A model generated the notes under the pieces. It had not been told where the DNA came from. It was given only the letters and a program-made list of their open reading frames with translations, and searched no databases. Shown piece after piece: positions 6,723 through 34,676 of a stretch of DNA of 41,990 nt; position 1 is the first letter of the stretch; each line of letters begins with the position of its first letter. Made by a program: the position numbers and the translations under genes. The DNA is from an uncultured Verrucomicrobiales bacterium. GTDB taxonomy: Bacteria > Verrucomicrobiota > Verrucomicrobiia > Verrucomicrobiales > DEV007. Where the stretch lies: positions 1 to 41,990 of the forward strand of contig CALAIY010000114.1 of the NCBI GenBank assembly GCA_937922595.1. Direction: 5' to 3'.

Positions 6723-7832
6723 TTAGTAGAGTTCGACGGGGGAGCGTTTGCCGTTTTCTGGGGAGCGTGAGGCGGCGAGTTCTTCGCCGAGGGTGGCGAC
6801 GCGGAGGTTCCAGATGTCGTCGTTAATTTTCGAGAAGACGTCGAGATCGAAGTGATCCGGGGGAGAGAGTTTAGCTTTGGCGAGTTCGACTCGTCGGAGT
6901 GAATCGTGGAGGGCGGGCTCGGGCACTTTTTCGAGGATTTTTTTGGCGTCTTCTACCATTTCGAGGCGGTGGCAGATCATGCAGAGGTCGTTGCCTGCTT
7001 TGATTGCTTCTTGAATGGTCTGCTCGAAACCGACTTCGTTGAGGATGGCTCCCATGTCGAGGTCGTCGGTCATGACGAGTGAATCATCGAAGCCGAGTTG
7101 GTCCCGGAGGAATTTGGTGATGATGTTATGCGAAAGTGAGGATGGCCAGCGGTTGCGGTCTGGATCGAAGGCGGGGTAGTAGGCGTGGCCGATCATCATC
7201 GAATCGAGTTCATCGAGGAGGGCGGTGAAGGGGATGAGTTCTTCGGCGAGCATTTGCTCTTTAGAGCGGTTGATCACGGGAAGTTCTTCGTGGGGATCGA
7301 CTTCAGCGGGGCCGTAGGCGGGGAAGTGTTTTCCGCAGGAGAGGATTCCTTGGCTGCGCATGGCGCGATTGAAAATGCCTGCGTTGTCGATGACTTCTTG
7401 CGGGTTCGTGCCGTAGCAGCGGCCTTTAAGGGAATTATCTGCTTCGTCATCGTAGGAGATATCGAGGACGGGACAGAGATCGAGATTGAAGCCGAAGTGG
7501 CGGAGGAGCTTTCCGGTGATGCGGCCGTGCTCTTTGATGAGGGCGCGGTCTCCTTTTTCACGGAGCTGCTGGGCGTTGGGGGGTTCCTGGCCGATTTCGC
7601 GGAGGCGGGAGACGCGGCCGCCTTCTTGGTCGATGGTGATGATTGGTTCGATGTCCGAGAGATCGCGAAGGTCGTCGGTGAGTTTCCGGAGTTGCTCCGG
7701 GCTTTTGATGTTGCGGGAGAAGAGGATGAACCCACCGGGCTGAATGCGCTTGAGGCGGGCGGCGGTCTCGGGATCGAGTTCAGGTCCGGGGACGCCGGTG
7801 AGGAGGAGTTGACCGAGCGGGAGTGCTTCCAT
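6723..7832 (-). CDS. nagZ: Beta-N-acetylhexosaminidase (GH3)
   Basis: This 369-residue protein matches NagZ, which releases N-acetylglucosamine from peptidoglycan muropeptides in cell-wall recycling. Starting at ATG 7832 the protein opens LPLGQLLLTGVPGPELDP, and PGGFILFSRN follows, exactly where GH3 NagZ proteins begin; the open frame further upstream is antisense to namZ and was rejected. The loop KHFPAYGPAEVDPHEELP (about 166-183) keeps the KHFP and D-x-H of the catalytic dyad, although the usual GHG and DSH are changed to AYG and DPH. The nucleophile motif MTDDLDMG is near residue 254. No signal peptide is seen, so it is probably cytoplasmic. The gene is divergent from namZ. Confidence 0.92.
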   Translation of the reverse strand: MEALPLGQLLLTGVPGPELDPETAARLKRIQPGGFILFSRNIKSPEQLRKLTDDLRDLSDIEPIITIDQEGGRVSRLREIGQEPPNAQQLREKGDRALIKEHGRITGKLLRHFGFNLDLCPVLDISYDDEADNSLKGRCYGTNPQEVIDNAGIFNRAMRSQGILSCGKHFPAYGPAEVDPHEELPVINRSKEQMLAEELIPFTALLDELDSMMIGHAYYPAFDPDRNRWPSSLSHNIITKFLRDQLGFDDSLVMTDDLDMGAILNEVGFEQTIQEAIKAGNDLCMICHRLEMVEDAKKILEKVPEPALHDSLRRVELAKAKLSPPDHFDLDVFSKINDDIWNLRVATLGEELAASRSPENGKRSPVELY

Positions 7833-7842
7833 AGTGTCGGCG

Positions 7843-9117
7843 ATGATTGCAGGCTTGGGAGAGGAAAACAAAGAGAAAGTCGCCCGTCGTGCCGTACTGG
7901 CGGCATTGGCTGGGAGCATGCTTTCGAGCTGTCGTTCATCGGCGTCTCTGACGGTGCCGAATGGTGGGGGGGCGCCGATGCTTGGGATTGATGTTCTTGA
8001 GGCCACGGGCTTCTCTGCGCTGGCGGGCAAACGTGTCGCGCTGATTACTAATCAGACGAGTGTAAACCGCCGAGGAAGGATGACGCGCGAGGTGCTGGCC
8101 CGGGCTTCACAGGTGAATTTGGTGAAACTTTTCACTCCTGAGCACGGGCTTGATGGTCGTGTGCGTGCGGGGGTGAAAGTCCAGACGGAGAAAGATTCCG
8201 TGACGGGGCTTACTGCGTTTTCCCTCTATGGCCAGTATCGAAAGCCGACCTCTTGGATGCTTCAGGGGATTGATGTTCTTGTCTTCGATCTGCAAGATAT
8301 CGGCTGCCGTAGTTATACTTACATCAGCACGATGATACGGGCGATGGAGGCGTGCGCTGAATCGAATAAAGAATTCGTCGTGCTCGACCGGCCGAATCCG
8401 CTGGGCGGAAACCGCATTGAGGGGCCGGGGCTGGTGCGGAGATGGCAGAGTTTCGTTAGTGAAATTCCGGTGCCTTATGTGCATGGAATGACCGCTGGAG
8501 AGCTTGCGATCATGACGAATGAGAGCGGCTGGATAAAACGCAAGGCTCGTCTCGGGGTGGTGAAAATGCGCAATTGGACCCGCTCGATGACTTCGCCCGG
8601 CTTGCGGCTTCCGTGGGTGGCGACGTCGCCAAATATTCCGAATCGTGATTCGCCTTTTTACTATGCTGCTACTGGGATGCTGGGAGGTCTGGCGAATGTG
8701 GATATTGGAATCGGCACGAATCGCCCCTTCGAGTATGCGGGAGCAGAGGGGATTGATGCTCGGAGCTTTCGCGCGGCGCTTGATCGGCGTGGATTTCCTG
8801 GGGTGCGTTTTTCTGAATATTCTAGTTCCCGGAAGCCCGGATTTGTGGGGGTGCGGATGCGGATCGATGCGAATACGCCTGCGGATCTGACTTATCTCGA
8901 CGTCGCCTTGATGTCTGAGATTAATCGTCGGACGAATGGGCGCCCTTTTGCCACGGCGTCCAAATCGCAGATGGATCTTTTCCACAAAGTGGCTGGGACG
9001 GATCGTCTTGCGCGCGACATTCGCCGTGGGGTCGACCCTGCGACGATTGCGGCTGGCTGGCGCAGCGGAGTCGAGAGTTTCCGGCGCAGCCGAGGGCGAT
9101 TTTTGCTCTACGCGTAG
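7843..9117 (+). CDS. namZ: Exo-beta-N-acetylmuramidase NamZ-like lipoprotein (DUF1343, GH171)
   Basis: This 424-residue protein belongs to DUF1343/GH171, whose characterised members remove terminal MurNAc from peptidoglycan fragments. Diagnostic blocks are RVALITNQTSVNR, LFTPEHGLDG (family-conserved acidic residue), LYGQYRKP, DLQDIGCRSYTYISTM, VLDRPNPLGG and PYVHGMTAGELA. The N-terminus, ARRAVLAALAGSMLSSC, has a Tat-like RR followed by a lipobox with Cys30, so the product is probably an exported lipoprotein. ATG 7843 is used; a GTG at 7834 would add three residues. It is head to head with nagZ and is followed by murJ after 31 bases. NamZ and NagZ acting on alternate sugars suggests joint wall-fragment degradation. 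Confidence 0.9.
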   Translation: MIAGLGEENKEKVARRAVLAALAGSMLSSCRSSASLTVPNGGGAPMLGIDVLEATGFSALAGKRVALITNQTSVNRRGRMTREVLARASQVNLVKLFTPEHGLDGRVRAGVKVQTEKDSVTGLTAFSLYGQYRKPTSWMLQGIDVLVFDLQDIGCRSYTYISTMIRAMEACAESNKEFVVLDRPNPLGGNRIEGPGLVRRWQSFVSEIPVPYVHGMTAGELAIMTNESGWIKRKARLGVVKMRNWTRSMTSPGLRLPWVATSPNIPNRDSPFYYAATGMLGGLANVDIGIGTNRPFEYAGAEGIDARSFRAALDRRGFPGVRFSEYSSSRKPGFVGVRMRIDANTPADLTYLDVALMSEINRRTNGRPFATASKSQMDLFHKVAGTDRLARDIRRGVDPATIAAGWRSGVESFRRSRGRFLLYA

Positions 9118-20191: not shown

Positions 20192-20307
20192 TTTTTAAGG
20201 GGGGGAGGCTCGTTCGGAGGAAGGGGATTGCAAGGGGAAGGGTGGAGCGGAGGGATTTGGATAAAAGGCGTTTTACCCGGAGGCTCGCCCGGGTAGGTTC
20301 CGTGCCG

Positions 20308-21150
20308 ATGGGTTATCGTGTGCTTCAAATTGTGATCGTTGGCTTTTGGGCGATCATGACGGGATTGCTGGTGCGGAGCGTGGTCTCGGAGGCTGCGCGG
20401 TATACGGAGGTGTCGATGGTGGAATTTGCGGGGCAGGTCTTGGCGAAGCGGGTGCAGTCGCCGAGGTTACTCATTTTTGCGGATGGTGTGGAGGTGGGGA
20501 ATGCGATGGTTTTCTCACAGCCGACGAATCGTGAGGAGGGTTCTGGATATTTGGTGAGGATAAATGGGACGCTCGATACCGCGCATTTTGCGAATAGCGG
20601 AAATGTGAGTGTGGCGACGGCTGTTTCGCCGAAGCTTCGGTTTGGGATTACGGCGCAGCTCGACCAGGCAGGGGCTACTGAAAATGTGAATCTCATGCTG
20701 CGGCCACAGTCGACCGCGCTCGAAGTGAGTCTTGGTTATGCGCCAGGGGCCAAGGGGCTCACTTATAATATTACAGATGGCGAGAAGGTGATGTATTCAA
20801 ATGAAGGTGGAGGTGGGCTTGATGTGTTGCCTATGGCGGCGCTTGCTGCAGGCGGGCTTCCTTTTGCCGGACTGCCCTCAGGCTTGGACGAGATGGCGAT
20901 TGCGGAGAAGAAGGGCTCGATCTCGGAGCTATTTGTGGCGAAGAAGGGAAAGGCAAAGATGGGCAAGCATGATTTCAGTGCTTACGTATTGGAATTTACA
21001 ACTCCACTTGGAGGCGAGCCGGTACGGCTGGTCTTCTCGATATCGGGTGAGTTGATGGCGGTCGAGAACATTCCGGGGCACACGATTATTGCTGAATCGT
21101 TTGTCGTGCCGGCGGAGCCTGGCGAGAAGCATGTGCTCACTGATTGGTAG
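20308..21150 (+). CDS. Hypothetical membrane-anchored extracytoplasmic protein
   Basis: This 280-residue protein starts with one membrane segment (about 4-26, VLQIVIVGFWAIMTGLLV), followed by a soluble, beta-rich domain with a glycine-rich loop (about 170-200) and no recognised motif. The ATG at 20308 was chosen because it directly precedes the membrane segment; the open frame to 20242 is a short basic stretch. The next gene, an ABC ATPase, follows after 30 bases, so the two are probably co-expressed. The protein could be an accessory part of an ABC-type machine, but nothing in the sequence proves that. Confidence 0.65.
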   Translation: MGYRVLQIVIVGFWAIMTGLLVRSVVSEAARYTEVSMVEFAGQVLAKRVQSPRLLIFADGVEVGNAMVFSQPTNREEGSGYLVRINGTLDTAHFANSGNVSVATAVSPKLRFGITAQLDQAGATENVNLMLRPQSTALEVSLGYAPGAKGLTYNITDGEKVMYSNEGGGGLDVLPMAALAAGGLPFAGLPSGLDEMAIAEKKGSISELFVAKKGKAKMGKHDFSAYVLEFTTPLGGEPVRLVFSISGELMAVENIPGHTIIAESFVVPAEPGEKHVLTDW

Positions 21151-21180: not shown

Positions 21181-21927
21181 ATGATCGAAACTCAATCCCT
21201 CACAATGCACTATGGCGATCTCGTGGCGCTCGATGGTCTCGACCTTAAAGTGGAACAGGGGGAGTTTTTCGCCTTTCTCGGACCGAATGCTGCGGGGAAG
21301 ACGACGACAATTAAGCTCCTTACCGGGCTTCTCCAACCGACTAGGGGGATGGCAAAACTTTGCGGTATCGATATCCACCAGCATCCGATCGAGGCGAAGC
21401 GAAAACTGGGCTACGTGCCTGATGTGGCCGTTTTTTATGAGAAGCTGACAGCGCTGGAATTTATGGAATTCACGGCGGATCTTTTCGAGATGGATTCGGC
21501 TCCAGCACGTGCGGAGACCTCGCGGCTTTTTGAGCGTTTCGATCTCGGCCCTTATGCGGGTGAGCAGGCAGAAAACCTCTCGCATGGCACCCGGCAGCGT
21601 CTCGCGATCGCTGCTGCGCTGCTTCATAATCCAGAAATCGTCATCATCGATGAGCCGATGGTGGGGCTCGATCCAATCCACGCGAGGACGGTAAAGGAGG
21701 AGCTTCGTGAGCGTGCGAGCCAGGGGACGACGGTTTTTATGTCGACCCATTTGCTCAATATCGCCGAAGAGCTGGCCGACCGAATTGCCGTGATTCATCA
21801 CGGAAAACTCGTCGAATTAGGCACGCTCGCGGAGCTACGATCTCGCACTGGTGGGAGTCATGCACTTGAGGCGATGTTTCTCGATATGGTCGCTGCCACA
21901 CCGGAGAGTTCTGGTGCTAGGCACTAG
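21181..21927 (+). CDS. ABC transporter ATP-binding protein, ABC-2/CcmA type
   Basis: This 248-residue ATPase has Walker A LGPNAAGKTTT, a Q-loop region GYVPDVAVFYEKLTALEF, signature NLSHGTRQRLAIAAAL, Walker B IVIIDEPMVGLDP and the switch histidine in MSTHLL. These match the ABC-2 branch (NodI/CcmA/YhaQ-like) that normally pairs with a six-helix permease. No such permease lies on either side: the upstream gene has only one membrane segment and the downstream gene is exbB. The partner is either distant or unusual. A short hairpin covers the end of the gene. Confidence 0.9.
   Translation: MIETQSLTMHYGDLVALDGLDLKVEQGEFFAFLGPNAAGKTTTIKLLTGLLQPTRGMAKLCGIDIHQHPIEAKRKLGYVPDVAVFYEKLTALEFMEFTADLFEMDSAPARAETSRLFERFDLGPYAGEQAENLSHGTRQRLAIAAALLHNPEIVIIDEPMVGLDPIHARTVKEELRERASQGTTVFMSTHLLNIAEELADRIAVIHHGKLVELGTLAELRSRTGGSHALEAMFLDMVAATPESSGARH
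21911..21927 (+). terminator. Hairpin over the ABC ATPase stop codon, possible weak terminator
   Basis: CTGGTGC, a TAG loop and GCACTAG form a seven-pair stem (one G-T) that ends exactly on the stop codon. No T run follows, so termination strength is doubtful. Confidence 0.3.
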
Positions 21928-22007: not shown

Positions 22008-22088
22008 TGATACCTAGCCTCCGGTCTTATGCCGATTTAGGCATTTCTTAAGCCCATCAGCCCAACACTCTTCGAATTTAAACCTGTG

Positions 22089-22895
22089 ATGACCCCTTCT
22101 GCCACCACTAGCTCATTAAAGATGCGCATCGCCGCGACGGCTGTCGCCCTGGCCTCAATTTCTGCTGCTCCCCGGGTGTTTGCTCAGGATGGTGAAGTTG
22201 CCGAAGCTGCTACCGAGCTCACTCTCATGAGTCTTATCGGCCAGGGTGGGTGGGCAATGTGGCCACTTGGTCTCCTTTCGATCGCAGTCATCACGCTCAT
22301 CGTTTACAACGCGCTTCAGCTGACAAAAGGGAAGTTTGCCCCGGCAGATCTTCAGGCAGCAGTGCACGAGCAGATGGCGGCCTGCCGCGTCCGAAGCGCC
22401 ATCGAAGTTTCGGCGACTAGCCCGACGTATCTTGGTCGCATGCTTACGACATCACTTCCACGGGTCGATGCTACGGATCCCGAGACTCTTGGGCAGGAAG
22501 CTGTGGAGGATGAGATGGCGGATTTCACGGTGAAAGAGAATCGCAGCTATCTTACGTGGATCGGCTATTTTTCCATCATCTCTCAAGTAGCTCCTATGGT
22601 AGGGCTTCTCGGCACCGTCTCCGGTATGATCAAGGCATTCGCTAAACTCCAGAGCGGTGGCGGAGCCAACCCAGAAGCTCTCGCTGGCAACATCTCTGAG
22701 GCTCTCGTCACTACGGCAACCGGCCTCATCGTCGCCATTCCGGCACTCTTCGGATACTTCGTCTTCAAAAACCGGCTCAATAAACTCGTTGCCGAGTGTC
22801 ACGCTGCGGAGAACGACATGCTCGAAGCTTCGATCATGGCGGTGAATGCGGATCAATACATGGCAAAGGTTCCAGAAGGTCTTCAGGCGGGCTAA
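22089..22895 (+). CDS. exbB: MotA/TolQ/ExbB proton channel family protein
   Basis: This 268-residue protein is an ExbB-type stator subunit that uses the proton gradient together with ExbD. It begins with a cleavable-looking signal peptide (about 1-32, ending PRVFA) followed by QDGEVAEAATEL, so the mature N-terminus is periplasmic. Three membrane segments are seen: near 50-75 (WAMWPLGLLSIAVITLIVY), about 155-180 (IISQVAPMVGLLGTVSGMI) and about 195-220 (ALVTTATGLIVAIPALFGYF). The second and third are the highly conserved ExbB core. ATG 22089 is used; a GTG one codon earlier is possible. It opens a five-gene block with two exbD genes and two TPR-type genes. Confidence 0.93.
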   Translation: MTPSATTSSLKMRIAATAVALASISAAPRVFAQDGEVAEAATELTLMSLIGQGGWAMWPLGLLSIAVITLIVYNALQLTKGKFAPADLQAAVHEQMAACRVRSAIEVSATSPTYLGRMLTTSLPRVDATDPETLGQEAVEDEMADFTVKENRSYLTWIGYFSIISQVAPMVGLLGTVSGMIKAFAKLQSGGGANPEALAGNISEALVTTATGLIVAIPALFGYFVFKNRLNKLVAECHAAENDMLEASIMAVNADQYMAKVPEGLQAG

Positions 22896-22940
22896 GGCTA
22901 AGGAAAACCCCTCTATTACCTTTCCTTTTCCACCTTATTT

Positions 22941-23429
22941 ATGGCTTCGAAGAAGTTACAGCGATCCGGCGAAGCTCAGCTTGAAGAGCTGTCGATCGAC
23001 ATGTCACCGATGATCGACATGGTGTTCCTGTTGCTCATCTTCTTCATGGTGAATGCCGTCATCATTGACTACAAGAAAGACAAGAGCATCGAAATTCCCA
23101 TCGCAAGCGAGGCGAAAGCTCCGAATGGCGTGTCGGGTCGTGTCGTGATCAACGTCTACAACGACGAGACCGAGGCCAAGAACGGCACGCGTTTCGCTGA
23201 TGAAAACAGCAATCCTCTCGACGAAGCCGGTATCACAGAACTCGTCCGTGAGCGTAAGCTTGCCAATGAAAATTCAGGTGTCCCGAAAACGATCCTCCAT
23301 CTCCGAGCAGATGCCAGTGTGAATGTCGAATACACTAAGCGCGCGGTGAAGGCTGCTGGTGATGCCGAAGTCGGTAGCGTGATTTTCAGCACCTACCAAA
23401 CCCAGAGCGCCCCGGCTGCGGTCGAATAA
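22941..23429 (+). CDS. exbD: ExbD/TolR biopolymer transport protein, first copy
   Basis: This 162-residue protein has a short cytoplasmic start, one membrane helix (about 24-45, IDMVFLLLIFFMVNAVI) and a periplasmic domain. The aspartate at residue 26, in MSPMIDMVFLLL, is the conserved proton-carrying residue of the ExbD/TolR family. The periplasmic part (about 50-160) has the usual small alpha/beta pattern with HLRADASVNVEYTKRAVKAA. It lies 45 bases after exbB and 21 bases before a second exbD. Confidence 0.93.
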   Translation: MASKKLQRSGEAQLEELSIDMSPMIDMVFLLLIFFMVNAVIIDYKKDKSIEIPIASEAKAPNGVSGRVVINVYNDETEAKNGTRFADENSNPLDEAGITELVRERKLANENSGVPKTILHLRADASVNVEYTKRAVKAAGDAEVGSVIFSTYQTQSAPAAVE

Positions 23430-23450
23430 ATCCCTCGTTTTTCTCCCCTC

Positions 23451-23900
23451 ATGGCACGCCGCATCCCACTTCAAGCAGAGCCCGAAGACGAGCCAGAACT
23501 CGACGTCGCTTCGCTGATTGACGTATCCTTTCTTTTGCTCATTTACTTCATCGTCACTTCGACGCTTCAGAAGCAAGAGACCGATCTTGGACTCACGCTT
23601 CCATCGAGTGTTGCCAGCGGTGTTCCAGTCGAGATTGAGCCGATTAACATCAAAATCGATGGAGAAGGCAACATTTATTGGAATGGAGAGCAAATCGAGC
23701 AGGGGAATGAGCGTGCACTTCCTCGCCTCCTCGAAGAACTCCTCGATTACAAAAGCATTAACGATTCCATCGGGAAAACGCCCGTAGTCATTGTCGCAGC
23801 AGATAACAGTGCAAACCAACAGCGCTTTGTCGATGTGGTGAATGCGCTTGCCGCTGTCGAGATTAGTTCTGTCACGCTTACCGGTTTCCGGCAACGCTAA
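23451..23900 (+). CDS. exbD: ExbD/TolR biopolymer transport protein, second copy
   Basis: This 149-residue ExbD paralogue has its membrane helix at about 22-40 (LIDVSFLLLIYFIVTS) with the conserved aspartate at residue 24. A periplasmic domain follows, with VEIEPINIKIDGEGNIYWNG, and ends VEISSVTLTGFRQR. It differs clearly from the first copy in helix and periplasmic sequence, so the two probably form a heteromeric stator or have separate roles. Both retain the key aspartate. It is followed by a large secreted TPR gene after 139 bases. Confidence 0.93.
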   Translation: MARRIPLQAEPEDEPELDVASLIDVSFLLLIYFIVTSTLQKQETDLGLTLPSSVASGVPVEIEPINIKIDGEGNIYWNGEQIEQGNERALPRLLEELLDYKSINDSIGKTPVVIVAADNSANQQRFVDVVNALAAVEISSVTLTGFRQR

Positions 23901-24039
23901 GGGATACTCGATTGCCCGTTTAAAAACTTCCCAAAAAGTCCCGTCATCCCATCCCAGCAGGACGTTGTTTGCACCAGCAGACCTCGGCTCTAGTGTGATG
24001 TGACCTCCGTTCAGCCCGTTTCCCATTGACCCCACTTTC

Positions 24040-26937
24040 ATGAAACACTCGTCGCTTCGCCCCACATTCCGGCGCGTCCTTCCTCCCGCACTCTTTCTTG
24101 CCGGCTCCCTTGCATTTTTGCCCACACTTACGGCGCAAGATATCGGAGGCGATTTCCAGCGTGCGGTAGTCCAGATGGAGGCCAGAGACTGGCCAACAGC
24201 CAAGACCGCGCTCGACGAACTCATCAAGCAGTATGATGGAGGAGGCATCAATGCTGCCGAGGAATTCGGGCCACGCTTCGGAGCTATCTACTTCCACCGC
24301 GCCCTCTGTAATTTCGAACTCAAAGATTACGCCGCTGCTATTGTGGATTTCGATACGTGTATCGAGAGATTTGCCAATAAGCCAGACACCGCTGCCACGG
24401 ATAGAAACACCTATACGAAACAGGCAGTTTTTCGCAAAGCAGGAGCACTCCAATATTCTGGGCAATACGAAGAAGCGATTGCTACGCTCAAGAAATTCTT
24501 AAAAAGCAAGCCTGAGGAAGGTTCCTACTCGAAAGGTGCCTATCTTTTAAGTCTTGGTACCTGCCAGGCGAAAATCGGGAACAACGCAGAGGCCACCAAG
24601 ACGTTTGGTACACTTTTTGATAATGCCAAAGCCTACGGGATGAAGCCAGGACAGCTTCTTTTCGCCTTGCGTCAGCTTGTCGATGGCTGGATTCGTAGTG
24701 GAATAGAATCTGAAAAAGACGCGCACGCATTTCTTGATCAATACGGCTCGCTCCTGAATGCTAGCCCCTGGGAGATTGCCTCAAGCCGGAGTGATCTCGG
24801 GATGCTACAGCTGGGGAAAGCTGCAAATGATGCGGAGATGTATCCTTTAGCGATTCGTCTTCTCGGTTTTGTTCCGAAGACGAGTGATATTATCTCTGAA
24901 ATTCAGCAGCGCGCAGCGCGTTACCCGAAAGTACCTACCAAGATTCAGGCTGAAATTGATAAATATAAAGCGCTCGCCGCAGGAGATCCAAATGAGGTGC
25001 GCGCCCTGAGCCAGATTGCCACCGCCTACGATAAACTCGGCAATTCACGCGTTGCCTATGTGATTTACGATTTCGTTGTAAAGAACTATCCCAATACCAG
25101 CTTTCGCCCTCAGATACTTTATGGCGTAGTTGCTATGGCAAGCAAGATTGGAGACCTTGCCGCAATTCAAAGTTACGGAGACACATTCCTTGCTGAATTT
25201 CCTGAGCATGGGCTCAGTAAAGACATCTCGGCACTCATGCTTGGGCAGCTCTTTAAAGACCGTAAGTATGAGGAATCGCTTAGCTTGGCGCGTACCGTAC
25301 GTAAAACGATGCCTACTGGATCGCCTCAGCGCGAGCTTCCAGATTTCGTGGCAGGAGGCTCTCTTTACTACCTAGGGCGCTATACTGAGGCAGAGACTGA
25401 ATTTGCCGATCACTTGAAAAGCTACCCCGAAAGTAAATTCGGTGAAAGTATTCGCTACTTCCAATCTGCGAATCTAGTGAAGCTTGCTCGCTGGAGTGAC
25501 GCCTCAAGTAAGCTCGATGCATTTCTGAAAGACTTTCCAGAATCGATCTATGTCGATACCGCGCTTTATGAGCGCGCCGTCGTTCACTTCTATGGTGGTG
25601 GAGATACCGAGTTGGCCTCGGCTCTTGCGAAGTTGGATAAAGTGGCCAGCGACTTTCCGGATTCTCAGGTCTCCGATTCCGCGCAGTTACTTCGTGGAGA
25701 TATTTTGCTCAGGCAGGAAAAAATTGCGGATGCCGCGAAGGCATATCAGGAAGCAATCAGCTTTGCACAAAAGCTCGATCACTCTCCAATCGAGGCGGCA
25801 GCACTTGCCCAACTCGTGAATGTGTCTGCGCAAGAGGGCGATGACGCAAAGACCATTGAGTATTTCGAGCGGTTTGAGAAAGGCTTCGCCAATAGTCCTC
25901 AGCGGGCGATCACGCTCGTCACCGCGCTGCCTGCGCTCAAAAAAGTGGGTCGCTCCGAAGAAGGTCTCGGTAAAATGGAAGAGATTATCAAAAATCTCGG
26001 ATCGATGCCCGATTCGGAAGAGATGGAGAAGGTCGTAAATACCTACGCCCAAGAATTCATTGAGATGAAAGGTGCCGATGCGCTGATCGATCGCATCCGT
26101 GAGCTTGAGAAAGACGTGGTCGGGAATGTCCCGCTCGTCGCATGGCTTACCATGGCTCGTATTCGCGTCCTCGAAGACCCGGCAAACAAAGATGCCTTCA
26201 AAAAGCGTGAGGCACGAATCAAAGTCGCCTATAACGACATTCAGACACTTCCCAAGGCTCAACTTGCCAATTCGATCAAAGACCAAGTCGGGCGCAACCT
26301 CGTTCGCCAGGGCAATGCTGAACTTGCCCGCCCGTGGTTCCAGGCAATCATCGATGGTAATCTCGCCGATTACAAAGACAGTGCAGTGCTGGGTCTTGCC
26401 ACGGCAGATGCGGCTTCCGGAAAGAAGGCGAATCGTGAGAGTGCGATCGCTGGCTTCCGCCGAGTGATTCGTGAGTTTGAAACGGCGAAACTCCAAGAGG
26501 AAGCAACGCTCGGCCTCGCTCGTTTATTATCTGATTCTGGAGAATACAAAAAAGCGCTCGAAGAAGGATGGGCTCCTTATGTGAAGAACAGGAGTTGGGC
26601 AAAAGCCAGAGCGGAAGCGAATTTCAAGAAAGCGGAAGCTCACGATAAGCTCGGCCAAGTCGATGATGCTCTCAATGGTTACATGATCGGCGTTGTAGGT
26701 GCTTTTAGAAGTACCATTCAATACTCCGCTCCTGCCTGGCTTCGTGCAGCCGAGCTCGATTACGGGAAAGGAAATAAGGAAAACGCCTATAAAATGATCG
26801 ATGATATGGTGATCCGAATGGGGCACCTCGTCGGTAATGAGAAGGACGTGACTGATTCTATCCGTAAAGCCATCCGGGCTCGAGATAACTGGGCATCAGA
26901 GCTTGGTAAAACCACCACTCCACCTGCGGGCTCATAA
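24040..26937 (+). CDS. Large secreted tetratricopeptide-repeat protein
   Basis: This 965-residue protein has a signal peptide (about 1-32, ending PTLTA) and then almost continuous helical repeats of TPR/Sel1-like pattern to the C-terminus. Examples are YFHRALCNFELKDYAAAIVD, GALQYSGQYEEAIATLKKFL, VAGGSLYYLGRYTEAETEF and LLRGDILLRQEKIADAAKAY. No catalytic motif, lipobox or membrane segment was seen, so it is likely a soluble periplasmic scaffold. Its place directly after exbB-exbD-exbD suggests it is the working partner of that proton-driven complex. TPR proteins such as CpoB serve the Tol system in other bacteria, though CpoB is far smaller. Confidence 0.88.
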   Translation: MKHSSLRPTFRRVLPPALFLAGSLAFLPTLTAQDIGGDFQRAVVQMEARDWPTAKTALDELIKQYDGGGINAAEEFGPRFGAIYFHRALCNFELKDYAAAIVDFDTCIERFANKPDTAATDRNTYTKQAVFRKAGALQYSGQYEEAIATLKKFLKSKPEEGSYSKGAYLLSLGTCQAKIGNNAEATKTFGTLFDNAKAYGMKPGQLLFALRQLVDGWIRSGIESEKDAHAFLDQYGSLLNASPWEIASSRSDLGMLQLGKAANDAEMYPLAIRLLGFVPKTSDIISEIQQRAARYPKVPTKIQAEIDKYKALAAGDPNEVRALSQIATAYDKLGNSRVAYVIYDFVVKNYPNTSFRPQILYGVVAMASKIGDLAAIQSYGDTFLAEFPEHGLSKDISALMLGQLFKDRKYEESLSLARTVRKTMPTGSPQRELPDFVAGGSLYYLGRYTEAETEFADHLKSYPESKFGESIRYFQSANLVKLARWSDASSKLDAFLKDFPESIYVDTALYERAVVHFYGGGDTELASALAKLDKVASDFPDSQVSDSAQLLRGDILLRQEKIADAAKAYQEAISFAQKLDHSPIEAAALAQLVNVSAQEGDDAKTIEYFERFEKGFANSPQRAITLVTALPALKKVGRSEEGLGKMEEIIKNLGSMPDSEEMEKVVNTYAQEFIEMKGADALIDRIRELEKDVVGNVPLVAWLTMARIRVLEDPANKDAFKKREARIKVAYNDIQTLPKAQLANSIKDQVGRNLVRQGNAELARPWFQAIIDGNLADYKDSAVLGLATADAASGKKANRESAIAGFRRVIREFETAKLQEEATLGLARLLSDSGEYKKALEEGWAPYVKNRSWAKARAEANFKKAEAHDKLGQVDDALNGYMIGVVGAFRSTIQYSAPAWLRAAELDYGKGNKENAYKMIDDMVIRMGHLVGNEKDVTDSIRKAIRARDNWASELGKTTTPPAGS

Positions 26938-26958
26938 ACGCTGAGACGATATCTAAAG

Positions 26959-27831
26959 ATGAAACTCCTCCTCCCACTTTCTTTCGCAATCCTCGCTGTA
27001 TCTGCAGCCCATGCGAAACCACTTAAAGGCCAAATCAACGTCAAGGGACGCAACGCTGCTCAGGCTTTCTTCATTGTCTCTATCGACGAAAAGAAGGTTA
27101 CCTTCAGTAATTCCCCGACTGGTTCGGGCGCTAAGACTCTGCCGTTGAATAAAGTAGATAGTATCAGTTTTATATCTCCCGAAGGTTGGGAGGAAGCTGA
27201 TTCATCCTATGAAAAGGGGGAGTTTGAAACTGCGGCTAGCCGCTTCGGAAAGCTTGCTGACGAGTATTCGAATATTGCTCTTTTCTCCGATAGCTATGGT
27301 GCTCGCGCCCGCTACTTCGAGATGGAGAGCCTTCGTAAGCTTGGGAATTCTAAGGATTTGGCCAAGGCCGTCACAAAAATGAAGAAGTCTGGGATTAAGC
27401 TCGATGCCTCTTACGACGACCAGCTTAGTCTTTATTCCGCCTGGGCTGCGGCAGGAAAAAAGGACTGGAAAGAACTTAAAAAGATCATGGCAACCTATGA
27501 GAAGCCTGTGATTGATGAGGGGGCGATTCCAGAGATTAAAGAGCTCCCGTCTGCTCAGTTTGTCCAAGTGGCCTACCTTCGCGGGCTTCTCTACAAGGGA
27601 ATGGATGCGAAAGCGGAAGCCCTTAAAGATTTTACTCAAGCAATGGTGCTAAATTTTGGCCAAGAGTCCGCAGTGGCTGGCCAGGCCACTCTCGCTGCTC
27701 TCGATATTCTCGCCGAAGATCCTGAGGCAAACAAAAACGAGGCCTACGCTCTCACCCAAGTTTATAAAGCGCAGTTCGGAGGTGGTAAGCTTCCGAGCAA
27801 GTATGAGGCGCTGGCGAAAAAGCCTGAATAG
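26959..27831 (+). CDS. Secreted repeat-type protein, partner of the TPR protein
   Basis: This 290-residue protein has a signal peptide (1-19, ending SAAHA). A short beta-type domain (about 20-70) follows, with FFIVSIDEKKVTF and LNKVDSISFISPEGW, and then helical TPR-like repeats to the end (ADSSYEKGEFETAASRFGKL, YLRGLLYKGMDAKAEALKDF). It has no membrane anchor. It follows the large TPR gene by 21 bases and is the last gene of the exbB block, stopping 15 bases from the convergent antiporter gene. Its N-terminal part resembles domains that sense or bind small ligands in other envelope proteins, but no family can be named. Confidence 0.78.
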   Translation: MKLLLPLSFAILAVSAAHAKPLKGQINVKGRNAAQAFFIVSIDEKKVTFSNSPTGSGAKTLPLNKVDSISFISPEGWEEADSSYEKGEFETAASRFGKLADEYSNIALFSDSYGARARYFEMESLRKLGNSKDLAKAVTKMKKSGIKLDASYDDQLSLYSAWAAAGKKDWKELKKIMATYEKPVIDEGAIPEIKELPSAQFVQVAYLRGLLYKGMDAKAEALKDFTQAMVLNFGQESAVAGQATLAALDILAEDPEANKNEAYALTQVYKAQFGGGKLPSKYEALAKKPE

Positions 27832-32261: not shown

Positions 32262-33614
32262 CTATTCCTCTACCGGAGTGCTGGGAACAGCAGGAGCCGG
32301 GGGAGCAGGTGGTGGCGCTGGAGCGTCGTCGAGAGTCGGCTTGCTTAGCGGCTCGCCGCCGGGAGGAGCCGGAGGTGGTGGGAGAAGGAGGGCTTCGCCA
32401 TCGATCGGGGTCATGAGATCAATCTCGGAATTCGATGGAAGTGCGGGCTCTTCGATGGCCTCGAAGACGGGGATTGCCTTCTTTTTGCTTCCGGTGCGCA
32501 TCTTGGGCTTTTTCTTCATCCGGTGAAGCGCTGGGGCAGGCGGTCCAAGGTAATCTTTGCGGCCTTTGACGTTTGAAGTCGCGGCGACCATGAGATCGGT
32601 TGCGGAGGCAATGTCCGGCGCTGCCGAAACGGCTTCTGGATCAGCGGACGCGATATCGGCAAGGCGCTCACGAGCTTCGCCAAATTTATTTGAAGAGGGG
32701 GTGCGAGCGACTTCCGAGTAGTAAATGGCAGCGGCTTTGAGCTGCCCCTGTTTCTCGTAGTAGCGGGCGATTTCGAAGCTTTTCTCGGCTGATGATTCGT
32801 CGATTGCGGCACGCTTCGTAAGGAGATCGTTGTCGGTATCGCCGGGGTTGGTGAGGAGGAATTCTTCTACGGCATCATCTGCGGCAGTGAGGTTTTCGGC
32901 ATCGTAGGATCCACCTTCGACTTCCTCGAAGCTCATATTGGCGATGGCGAGTTGGGCGTCGCGTGCTTGGCGGGTTCCCGCGAAGTCATCGACTACTTGC
33001 TGGTAGGCGTTTCGGGCGAGGCGAATGTCGCGGTCGCGCTCGTAGACTTCACCGATGGAATAGAGTGCTTGGGGTGCGGTCGCTGCGCGGGGGGCGTTGC
33101 TGATGACCGATTGGTACATTTCGATGATCCGGCTGGATTCGAGACGGCGGCTGATTCCGAGCCACTTCACTTTGGCTCCATCTTTTGCACTATTAGCGAT
33201 GGTGAACTGGCGATCGAGAGCGGTGCGGAAATTGGCTCCGGTCTTGTAAGTATCGATGAAGTCCTGATAGGCTTCGAAGGCTGAGGAAATTTTGCCCTGG
33301 CTCTCGTAGAGGCCGCCGAGGCGGAAGGCGGCGGTGGCGGCAGAGCTGGTGAGTGGGTAGCGCGCTTTGACGCGCTTGTAGGTCTTGATGGCACTGCCGG
33401 TTTTTCCTTGCTCGGCGGCTTGCTCTGCTTGGGCGATCATGCCGGCAGCAGTATTGTCCTGTGCCTGGATTTCTTCGCGAGGTGGAAGTGTATCAGGATC
33501 GCTTTTATTAAAAAGCTTCTTCAGGAAGGCATCGCTATCGGGCATCGTCACGACGAGTGTCGTGGCAACGAGGACGGTGGCCATGGGGAGGGGAGAGAAA
33601 CGCGGAGTTTTCAC
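32262..33614 (-). CDS. bamD: BamD-like outer-membrane assembly TPR protein with proline-rich tail
   Basis: Starting at GTG 33614, this 450-residue protein has a short signal-like N-terminus (MKTPRFSPLPMATVLVATTL). TPR-type repeats follow to about 350, with YKRVKARYPLTSSAATAAFR, ALYSIGEVYERDRDIRLARN and YYEKQGQLKAAAIYYSEV. A disordered lysine- and proline-rich tail of about 90 residues ends the protein. The repeat layout resembles BamD/YfiO, part of the Bam complex that folds outer-membrane beta-barrels. There is no clear lipobox, so anchoring is uncertain, and the tail is unusual for BamD. ATG 33584 is an alternative start but would shorten the signal. Confidence 0.75.
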   Translation of the reverse strand: MKTPRFSPLPMATVLVATTLVVTMPDSDAFLKKLFNKSDPDTLPPREEIQAQDNTAAGMIAQAEQAAEQGKTGSAIKTYKRVKARYPLTSSAATAAFRLGGLYESQGKISSAFEAYQDFIDTYKTGANFRTALDRQFTIANSAKDGAKVKWLGISRRLESSRIIEMYQSVISNAPRAATAPQALYSIGEVYERDRDIRLARNAYQQVVDDFAGTRQARDAQLAIANMSFEEVEGGSYDAENLTAADDAVEEFLLTNPGDTDNDLLTKRAAIDESSAEKSFEIARYYEKQGQLKAAAIYYSEVARTPSSNKFGEARERLADIASADPEAVSAAPDIASATDLMVAATSNVKGRKDYLGPPAPALHRMKKKPKMRTGSKKKAIPVFEAIEEPALPSNSEIDLMTPIDGEALLLPPPPAPPGGEPLSKPTLDDAPAPPPAPPAPAVPSTPVEE

Positions 33615-33698
33615 ATCGCAGACTAGGCTTTCCGCCCCGACCGTCAAGAGGCTGTTGCTCGACAACCTTAAGCATCTGGACACACTACCGGTTTCCCG

Positions 33699-34676
33699 AT
33701 GGCATTTACCAGCGAAACAGCCTGCTCCTACCTCGAACGCGCCGCCCAAGATGGGCGGCTAGCGCACGCTTATCTCATCACTGGAGGAAGCCAGGCGGAG
33801 CAGGAAGCTCTTGCGGCTAAGCTTCTTACCATTGCGACTGGTGAGCCTTTTGTGGATCTCGGTGATGCAGAGGACAAAGCCGTCACTATTGTGCGGCCAG
33901 AATCGAAAAGTAGGGTCATTAAAGTTGAGCAAATGCGGGCGATGGAAAAAACGCTCCATATGTCGGGAAAAGGGAGCCGGAAGATGGCGGTGGTGGTGGG
34001 AGCCGAGCGTTTGCGGGAAGCGGCGGCAAACGCGTTTCTCAAGACTTTGGAGGAGCCGCCTCAAGGGGTGATGATTCTTTTGCTCACGACGCAACCCGAG
34101 CAGCTTCTCACGACGATTCTTTCTCGCTGCATTCGCGTGCCTCTGATCACACGCAAGGTGATGCCAGCGCCAGAGGATCGGAGTGAAGATGAGGCCACGC
34201 TTCTAGATGTGCTCGATCAAGCTTCTGCTCAAAAGCCCTCGATGGCACTGGCGCTGAGCTTGAAAAATCAGTTTTCCGAGCTTCTCAAAACTCGGAAAAC
34301 GGCGCTGGGTAAGGAGAGCGATAAGCTTTACAAGGCGGAGGTGAAATCGCTGCAAAAGAAGGTCGATGATAGCTACTTCAAAGGTCGCGAGACGCATTAT
34401 AAAACTCTTGCTGAGTCGCGCTACATTCAGCAGCGGACGGCACTTCTGGGTGTCTTCGCGAGTTGGTTTGGCGATGCTCTTCGGCAGCTTCACCAATCGC
34501 CCGAGCTTGATCTCCCGGATTATGCTGGCGCGACAGAAAAGCTAGGCTCCGCTGCTGGCACGGAGGGAATGATGCGGAGATCGGAAGCTCTGGAAACGCT
34601 GCGCAGGCACCTCGATACGACAAATGTGAATGAGGCGCTGGCGCTTGATGTGGCGTTTTTGCGGATGTTTGGGTGA
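33699..34676 (+). CDS. holB: DNA polymerase III subunit delta' (clamp loader)
   Basis: This 325-residue protein is the delta' subunit of the clamp loader. It starts CSYLERAAQDGRLAHAYLITG, where the usual P-loop is replaced by GGSQAEQ as expected for delta', which does not hydrolyse ATP. The sensor region is clear: MRAMEKTLHMSGKGSRKMAV, then ANAFLKTLEEPPQGVMILLL and the TILSRCIRVPL arginine-finger region. The C-terminal part is helical. It is divergent from bamD with an 84-base gap. Confidence 0.9.
   Translation: MAFTSETACSYLERAAQDGRLAHAYLITGGSQAEQEALAAKLLTIATGEPFVDLGDAEDKAVTIVRPESKSRVIKVEQMRAMEKTLHMSGKGSRKMAVVVGAERLREAAANAFLKTLEEPPQGVMILLLTTQPEQLLTTILSRCIRVPLITRKVMPAPEDRSEDEATLLDVLDQASAQKPSMALALSLKNQFSELLKTRKTALGKESDKLYKAEVKSLQKKVDDSYFKGRETHYKTLAESRYIQQRTALLGVFASWFGDALRQLHQSPELDLPDYAGATEKLGSAAGTEGMMRRSEALETLRRHLDTTNVNEALALDVAFLRMFG

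Follow-up and report, generated by a model that had tools for sequence, protein, structure and literature searches.

Among the closest described systems is the Mul1B locus (MUL1) of Akkermansia muciniphila, which was reportedly described by Davey et al. in 2023. In the available portions of two further studies, Akkermansia is reported to require MUL genes for the uptake of mucin (PMC12928651) and certain enzymes are marked as Mul1A-associated (PMC11790493). A related arrangement, in which a TPR gene accompanies tolQ and two different tolR genes, was described in 2025 for bacteria of the PVC group; the accessible part of that work includes a form with a vWA transducer and ascribes a possible gliding-like role to the vWA relatives (PMC12204202).

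The window, by which we mean the whole stretch of 41,990 nucleotides analysed here, comes from an uncultured Verrucomicrobiales bacterium and contains a five-gene block that belongs in this company, together with two genes upstream of it:

20242 to 21150, plus strand: 302-aa protein with one N-terminal membrane helix, probable operon neighbour (homologues in place)
21181 to 21927, plus strand: ABC transporter ATPase, probable operon neighbour (Pfam ABC_tran 2.9e-26)
22086 to 22895, plus strand: ExbB/TolQ-type proton channel subunit of the MUL1 clade (Pfam MotA_ExbB 1.1e-27)
22941 to 23429, plus strand: ExbD1, with helix aspartate D26 in SPMIDMVF (Pfam ExbD 1.1e-15)
23451 to 23900, plus strand: ExbD2, with helix aspartate D24 in SLIDVSF (Pfam ExbD 1.6e-22)
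24040 to 26937, plus strand: exported TPR superhelix of 965 aa, probable Mul1A counterpart (TPR_6 4.4e-22)
26959 to 27831, plus strand: Mul1B-family protein of 290 aa with signal peptide, N-terminal beta domain and C-terminal TPR (NF052542)

We read this block as a putative proton-driven import machine for polymeric glycans that descends from the same ancestor as the Akkermansia Mul1B locus, and we assign this reading a probability of roughly 0.6. ExbB together with one ExbD1 and one ExbD2 would form a proton-driven motor in the inner membrane, the force of which would be exerted in the periplasm on a complex formed by the large TPR protein (probably Mul1A, to judge from its gene position) and Mul1B; this complex would in turn power or organise the passage of polymeric glycans across the outer membrane and into the periplasm. 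We infer that the TPR proteins receive the force of the motor and that an uptake function as in Akkermansia would hold here.

All five open reading frames named in the initial annotation, that is exbB, two exbD and two genes for exported TPR proteins on one strand, were confirmed. The gaps between them measure 45, 21, 139 and 21 bp and contain no terminator-like sites on the plus strand, so that a single transcript is plausible. ExbB had been credited with a signal peptide of its own, and it does possess a hydrophobic, export-like N-terminal segment, which ends in FAQ and is conserved in orthologues, A33 being invariant and Q34 nearly so. The description of the last two products as exported helical-repeat proteins needs amendment in one point: both are exported TPR proteins, but the second has a beta domain and is not a bare repeat protein. 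Upstream of the block, homologues of the 302-aa protein, which has no Pfam match over cut-off, occur at this position in 10 loci of the family, that of the window among them, and many loci of the family have a homologue of the ABC ATPase immediately before ExbB. Both genes may form part of the operon in the window's family, where they precede exbB in many loci, whereas they do not in Akkermansia; no permease gene was seen beside either of them.

For the comparison with Akkermansia we used a single-contig genome of 2,664,102 bases, which we take to be that of A. muciniphila. Its Mul1B scores 292 bits against the NCBIfam model NF052542, 'Mul1B family putative transporter subunit', which the 290-aa protein of the window matches with 101.6 bits at a cut-off of 75. 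The genes before mul1B encode ExbB, ExbD, ExbD and a TPR protein of 1101 aa, in the same order as in the window (exbB-exbD1-exbD2-TPR-mul1B), and other Akkermansia genomes have the identical five-gene order. The 965-aa protein of the window is homologous to the 1101-aa TPR protein (phmmer 6.7e-26), and in the ExbB tree the window ExbB and that of Akkermansia fall into one MUL1 clade with support of 98/92. Judged by sequence comparison, the window block and the Akkermansia Mul1B locus share ancestry. The window proteins have nevertheless diverged (ExbB is 44% and Mul1B 22% identical) and their host lies outside Akkermansia. The two loci also differ between exbD2 and the TPR gene, where A. muciniphila has a stretch of 1.08 kb (L034:13197-14272) and the window 139 bp. 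Most of that stretch is alignable in only one of four further Akkermansia loci compared. It opens with a terminator-like hairpin and contains no convincing gene, two features which suggest that the stator genes may there be transcribed apart from the TPR gene. The block cannot count as a machine without precedent, since it already exists in A. muciniphila as the Mul1B locus and a double-tolR arrangement is on record for the PVC group (PMC12204202). Potentially novel are its wide occurrence outside gut Akkermansia and the lack of a transducer.

Turning to the motor, ExbB of the window contains the GTV and TTATGL threonine motifs, and the segment that holds them aligns to the TolQ/ExbB proton-path region of solved structures. 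The two ExbDs are distinct and keep their helix aspartates, as had been claimed, with D26 of ExbD1 and D24 of ExbD2 in place; a motif scan found this residue in 35/35 ExbD1 and 35/35 ExbD2 proteins of MUL1-type loci. About 60 loci could be read as three layouts, in which B stands for exbB, D for exbD, T for the long TPR gene and M for a mul1B-like gene. The MUL1 type, B-D-D-(D)-T-M, comprises 35 loci including the window. The second layout, B-D-D-X-T-M, is distinguished by an additional gene, X, located after exbD2 and before the TPR gene, and the third, T-M-B-D-D-X, is found mostly in other orders. The deeper forks of the ExbB tree are weakly supported. In its MUL1 clade 35 of the 37 rows come from MUL1-order loci, and the ExbBs of the second and third layouts form clades of their own (100/98 and 100/99, respectively). 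ExbD1 of all three layouts forms one clade of 52 rows, including the window, with support of 100/98, in a tree that is built on a short alignment, whose bootstrap is not fully settled and in which long branches meet at the D1/D2 split. The single clade implies that the split between ExbD1 and ExbD2 predates the divergence of the layouts. The ExbD2 of the window sits in a D2 clade common to Akkermansia. On this phylogeny ExbD1 and ExbD2 are ancient paralogues that have been retained as a pair, which would fit a motor with one ExbD1 and one ExbD2. In some MUL1-type loci (L084, L130, L217, L218, L220) exbD2 and the TPR gene are separated by a third exbD, and this copy groups on the ExbD2 side of the tree.

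The presumed periplasmic partners are repeat proteins of different build. Many Pfam TPR families match the 965-aa protein, and its model consists of helical hairpins throughout after the export signal, with good local confidence and an uncertain overall shape (mean pLDDT 84, pTM 0.51). Mul1B, which is weakly conserved (19-31% identity to the Mul1B of the window), is modelled with a five-strand beta domain at the N-terminus and TPR hairpins after it (mean pLDDT 84, pTM 0.78). Structure searches with the two models returned generic TPR matches only, so that the models inform us on architecture and not on function. The 965-aa protein also passes the YbgF/CpoB model TIGR02795 in four stretches (100 against 90.1 bits), this being a TPR model that other long TPR proteins here pass as well. 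An identity with CpoB was rejected: this one TPR model is passed, but the N-terminal trimerisation domain of CpoB (PF16331) found no Pfam match in the protein.

The block shares its motor family and proton-path residues with the Ton system, from which it differs by having two ExbDs, no TonB and no receptor. With Tol-Pal and its CpoB it has in common a TolQ/TolR-like motor and a periplasmic TPR protein, whereas TolA, TolB and Pal are missing from the block and the TPR protein is far longer than CpoB. The lack of TonB, TolA, TolB and Pal beside the block, on which the initial annotation had based its case, was confirmed locally. The stator of the window falls far short of the equivalog cut-offs for ExbB, TolQ, ExbD and TolR: its ExbB reaches 58.8 bits against the 206.2 set for the ExbB equivalog, and neither ExbD exceeds 28.6 bits where the ExbD cut-offs are 123-216. 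A single TonB_C match occurs in the genome, on contig C130, beside an ExbB/ExbD of its own and the sole Plug-domain receptor, and on contig C29 a further ExbB-ExbD pair is followed by a TonB-like protein of 243 aa that has no Pfam match. The MUL1-type motor is separate from the Ton system of its genome. Membership of the Ton system was rejected on the grounds that no TonB accompanies this stator and that the scores fall below the equivalog cut-offs.

The block could in principle be simply an additional, conventional energizer serving TonB and TonB-dependent receptors, given that its motor belongs to the ExbB/ExbD families and that the genome has a TonB and one receptor. We consider this highly improbable in view of the missing local TonB, the scores far under all four sets of equivalog cut-offs and the constant presence of the TPR and Mul1B partners. 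In addition, one genome of 93% completeness (G175) has the full MUL1 block, a TonB_C match at sub-cut-off level only and no Plug-domain receptor match.

Membership of Tol-Pal was likewise rejected: TolB (PF04052) is absent from the window's genome and present in one of the 37 genomes searched, of the genome's five OmpA-domain genes that pass the cut-off none is on the window's contig, leaving no linked Pal, and the scores are below the cut-offs. A looser kinship deserves separate mention. The gliding motor AglRQS of Myxococcus, which works with the Glt envelope proteins, has a similar make-up of one TolQ and two TolR homologues. The profiles of the window stator lean towards TolQ/TolR over ExbB/ExbD, the TPR protein passes the YbgF/CpoB model, and a gliding-like role has been suggested for the vWA relatives; the block might on these grounds be a Tol-Pal-like or gliding-type envelope machine, serving outer-membrane constriction or surface movement and not uptake. 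This is unlikely in our view, as TolB is absent from the genome, the MUL phenotypes reported for Akkermansia concern mucin uptake and A. muciniphila is, in the descriptions available, non-motile. With the cut-offs failed and the textbook partners missing, the earlier proposal of a stator with TPR partners that is distinct from the textbook Ton and Tol systems is supported.

As to how the force would leave such a motor, the sister subtypes are instructive. X is a membrane protein that has one helix and a linker, and a TonB/TolA-like histidine is present in its helix in 23 of the 24 proteins scanned. Its C-terminal domains vary by locus and include vWA (L207, L209, L213), a squalene-cyclase-like toroid (L208, L216), DUF4159 (L045) and a PA14-like domain at sub-threshold score (L041), several of the vWA and toroid matches lying below the curated cut-off. 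As a family (L041, L043, L045, L046, L207, L208, L216, L219), the X proteins share the N-terminal helix and linker and have interchangeable C-terminal domains, and some carry a SAM domain at the cytoplasmic N-terminus. C-terminal forms other than vWA were not found in the accessible part of the description of the PVC clusters (PMC12204202). Like those clusters, the window combines a TPR gene with a single TolQ-like gene and two TolR-like genes that differ from each other; it is set apart by having neither a vWA nor another transducer, by TPR genes that follow the stator instead of preceding it, and by an ExbB on a branch of its own.

No X-family match was found in the window, where exbD2 and the TPR gene lie so close together, and three Akkermansia genomes with MUL1 gave no credible match to X (best E 0.005, partial and low-complexity). 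The MUL1 branch would accordingly be rodless or borrow a rod. A hidden transducer in the exbD2-TPR gap of A. muciniphila was rejected, the 206-aa open reading frame there being without a match to X. The expectation that no tonB- or tolA-type gene adjoins the block in relatives is therefore borne out within the MUL1 branch and fails for the sister subtypes, in which a TonB/TolA-like transducer is present.

If a rod is borrowed, the force would pass through an unlinked TonB/TolA-like transducer, either one of three X-type proteins encoded elsewhere in the window's genome (contigs C84, C46 and C45) or the TonB of the genome. We give this possibility serious weight, if somewhat short of even odds; it is a variant of the glycan-import explanation, with which it overlaps. 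The X proteins with their histidine-bearing helix in the sister-subtype operons and the three candidates in the genome itself favour it. It is weakened by the three Akkermansia MUL1 genomes without a credible X match, by the fact that the genome's TonB has its own ExbBD and receptor, and by the ExbD that adjoins the X protein of C84. More tentatively, and with the balance tilted against it, we consider a rodless MUL1 motor in which the ExbD1-ExbD2 pair would hand its force straight to the TPR superhelix and Mul1B and so drive the swallowing of polymers across the Verrucomicrobiales. The block bears in this way on whether a motor of this sort needs a TonB-like rod at all.

Returning to the glycan-import reading, its reach depends on how widely the block is distributed. 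NF052542 has matches in 217 of the 289 Verrucomicrobiales genomes, which represent 46 of the 50 genera, and the MUL1-type ExbB profile matches 177 of the 289 at E<=1e-60. Linkage was counted over the 126 Verrucomicrobiales genomes with a placed Mul1B among the matches listed. In at least 95 of these 126, the MUL1-type ExbB shares contig and strand with Mul1B and lies 4.0-5.7 kb upstream of it (median 4.4 kb); in 10 the place of the ExbB is outside the matches listed, and in six it is unlinked or on a different contig. A further 15, G325 and G224 among them, have TPR-mul1B without a MUL1-type ExbB match, so that the TPR pair may there depend on a different motor or on no motor. Free drift of the TPR genes away from exbBD, which the initial annotation had named as a refutation of its proposal, is thus not seen. 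The survey of the gene order in relatives that it had proposed yields a divided answer: the five-gene order is conserved, and a TonB/TolA-like transducer adjoins the stator in the sister subtypes.

Of the 95 genomes with this linkage, 61 lie outside genus group g2, presumably Akkermansia, and the full five-gene block is present in a named Luteolibacter genome (L129). MUL1 synteny has been stated to be absent from aquatic Akkermansiaceae and MUL1 has been claimed as a gut-specific adaptation, as far as the available text of that study goes (PMC13174399). The order-wide spread is at odds with this, unless MUL1 is defined there by other genes or by stricter similarity, in a comparison for which the habitats of most of our genomes are not known. 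Given its conservation throughout the order, the block probably represents a general, proton-driven engine by which cells swallow large sugars, and not an invention specific to the gut. The locus may thus be an old, order-wide uptake engine, with mucin use coming later, and it joins two literatures, that on the Akkermansia mucin-uptake locus and that on the double-TolR/TPR motors of the PVC group. It would also offer a candidate route for the uptake of whole polysaccharides by Verrucomicrobiota. In favour of glycan import, the window's genome has 11 sulfatase-domain genes over cut-off, with no GH29 fucosidase; against it, the five-gene block contains no outer-membrane channel.

Some further observations concern the surroundings of the block and related loci. 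Outside the block, the window carries a glycoside hydrolase family 3 gene at 6723-8030 and, on the minus strand, a gene for a TPR-rich protein of 495 aa at 32262-33749. At L087:1551-10235 a second TPR-mul1B pair stands in tandem, the TPR gene of which looks shortened (210 aa). Two additional ExbB-ExbD-TPR modules are encoded in the window's genome, one on contig C77 and one on C129 (L052:6681-11561 and L050:8108-12039); in the module of C77, a TPR gene and a small TPR-like gene come before exbB, and one exbD is found before the contig ends.
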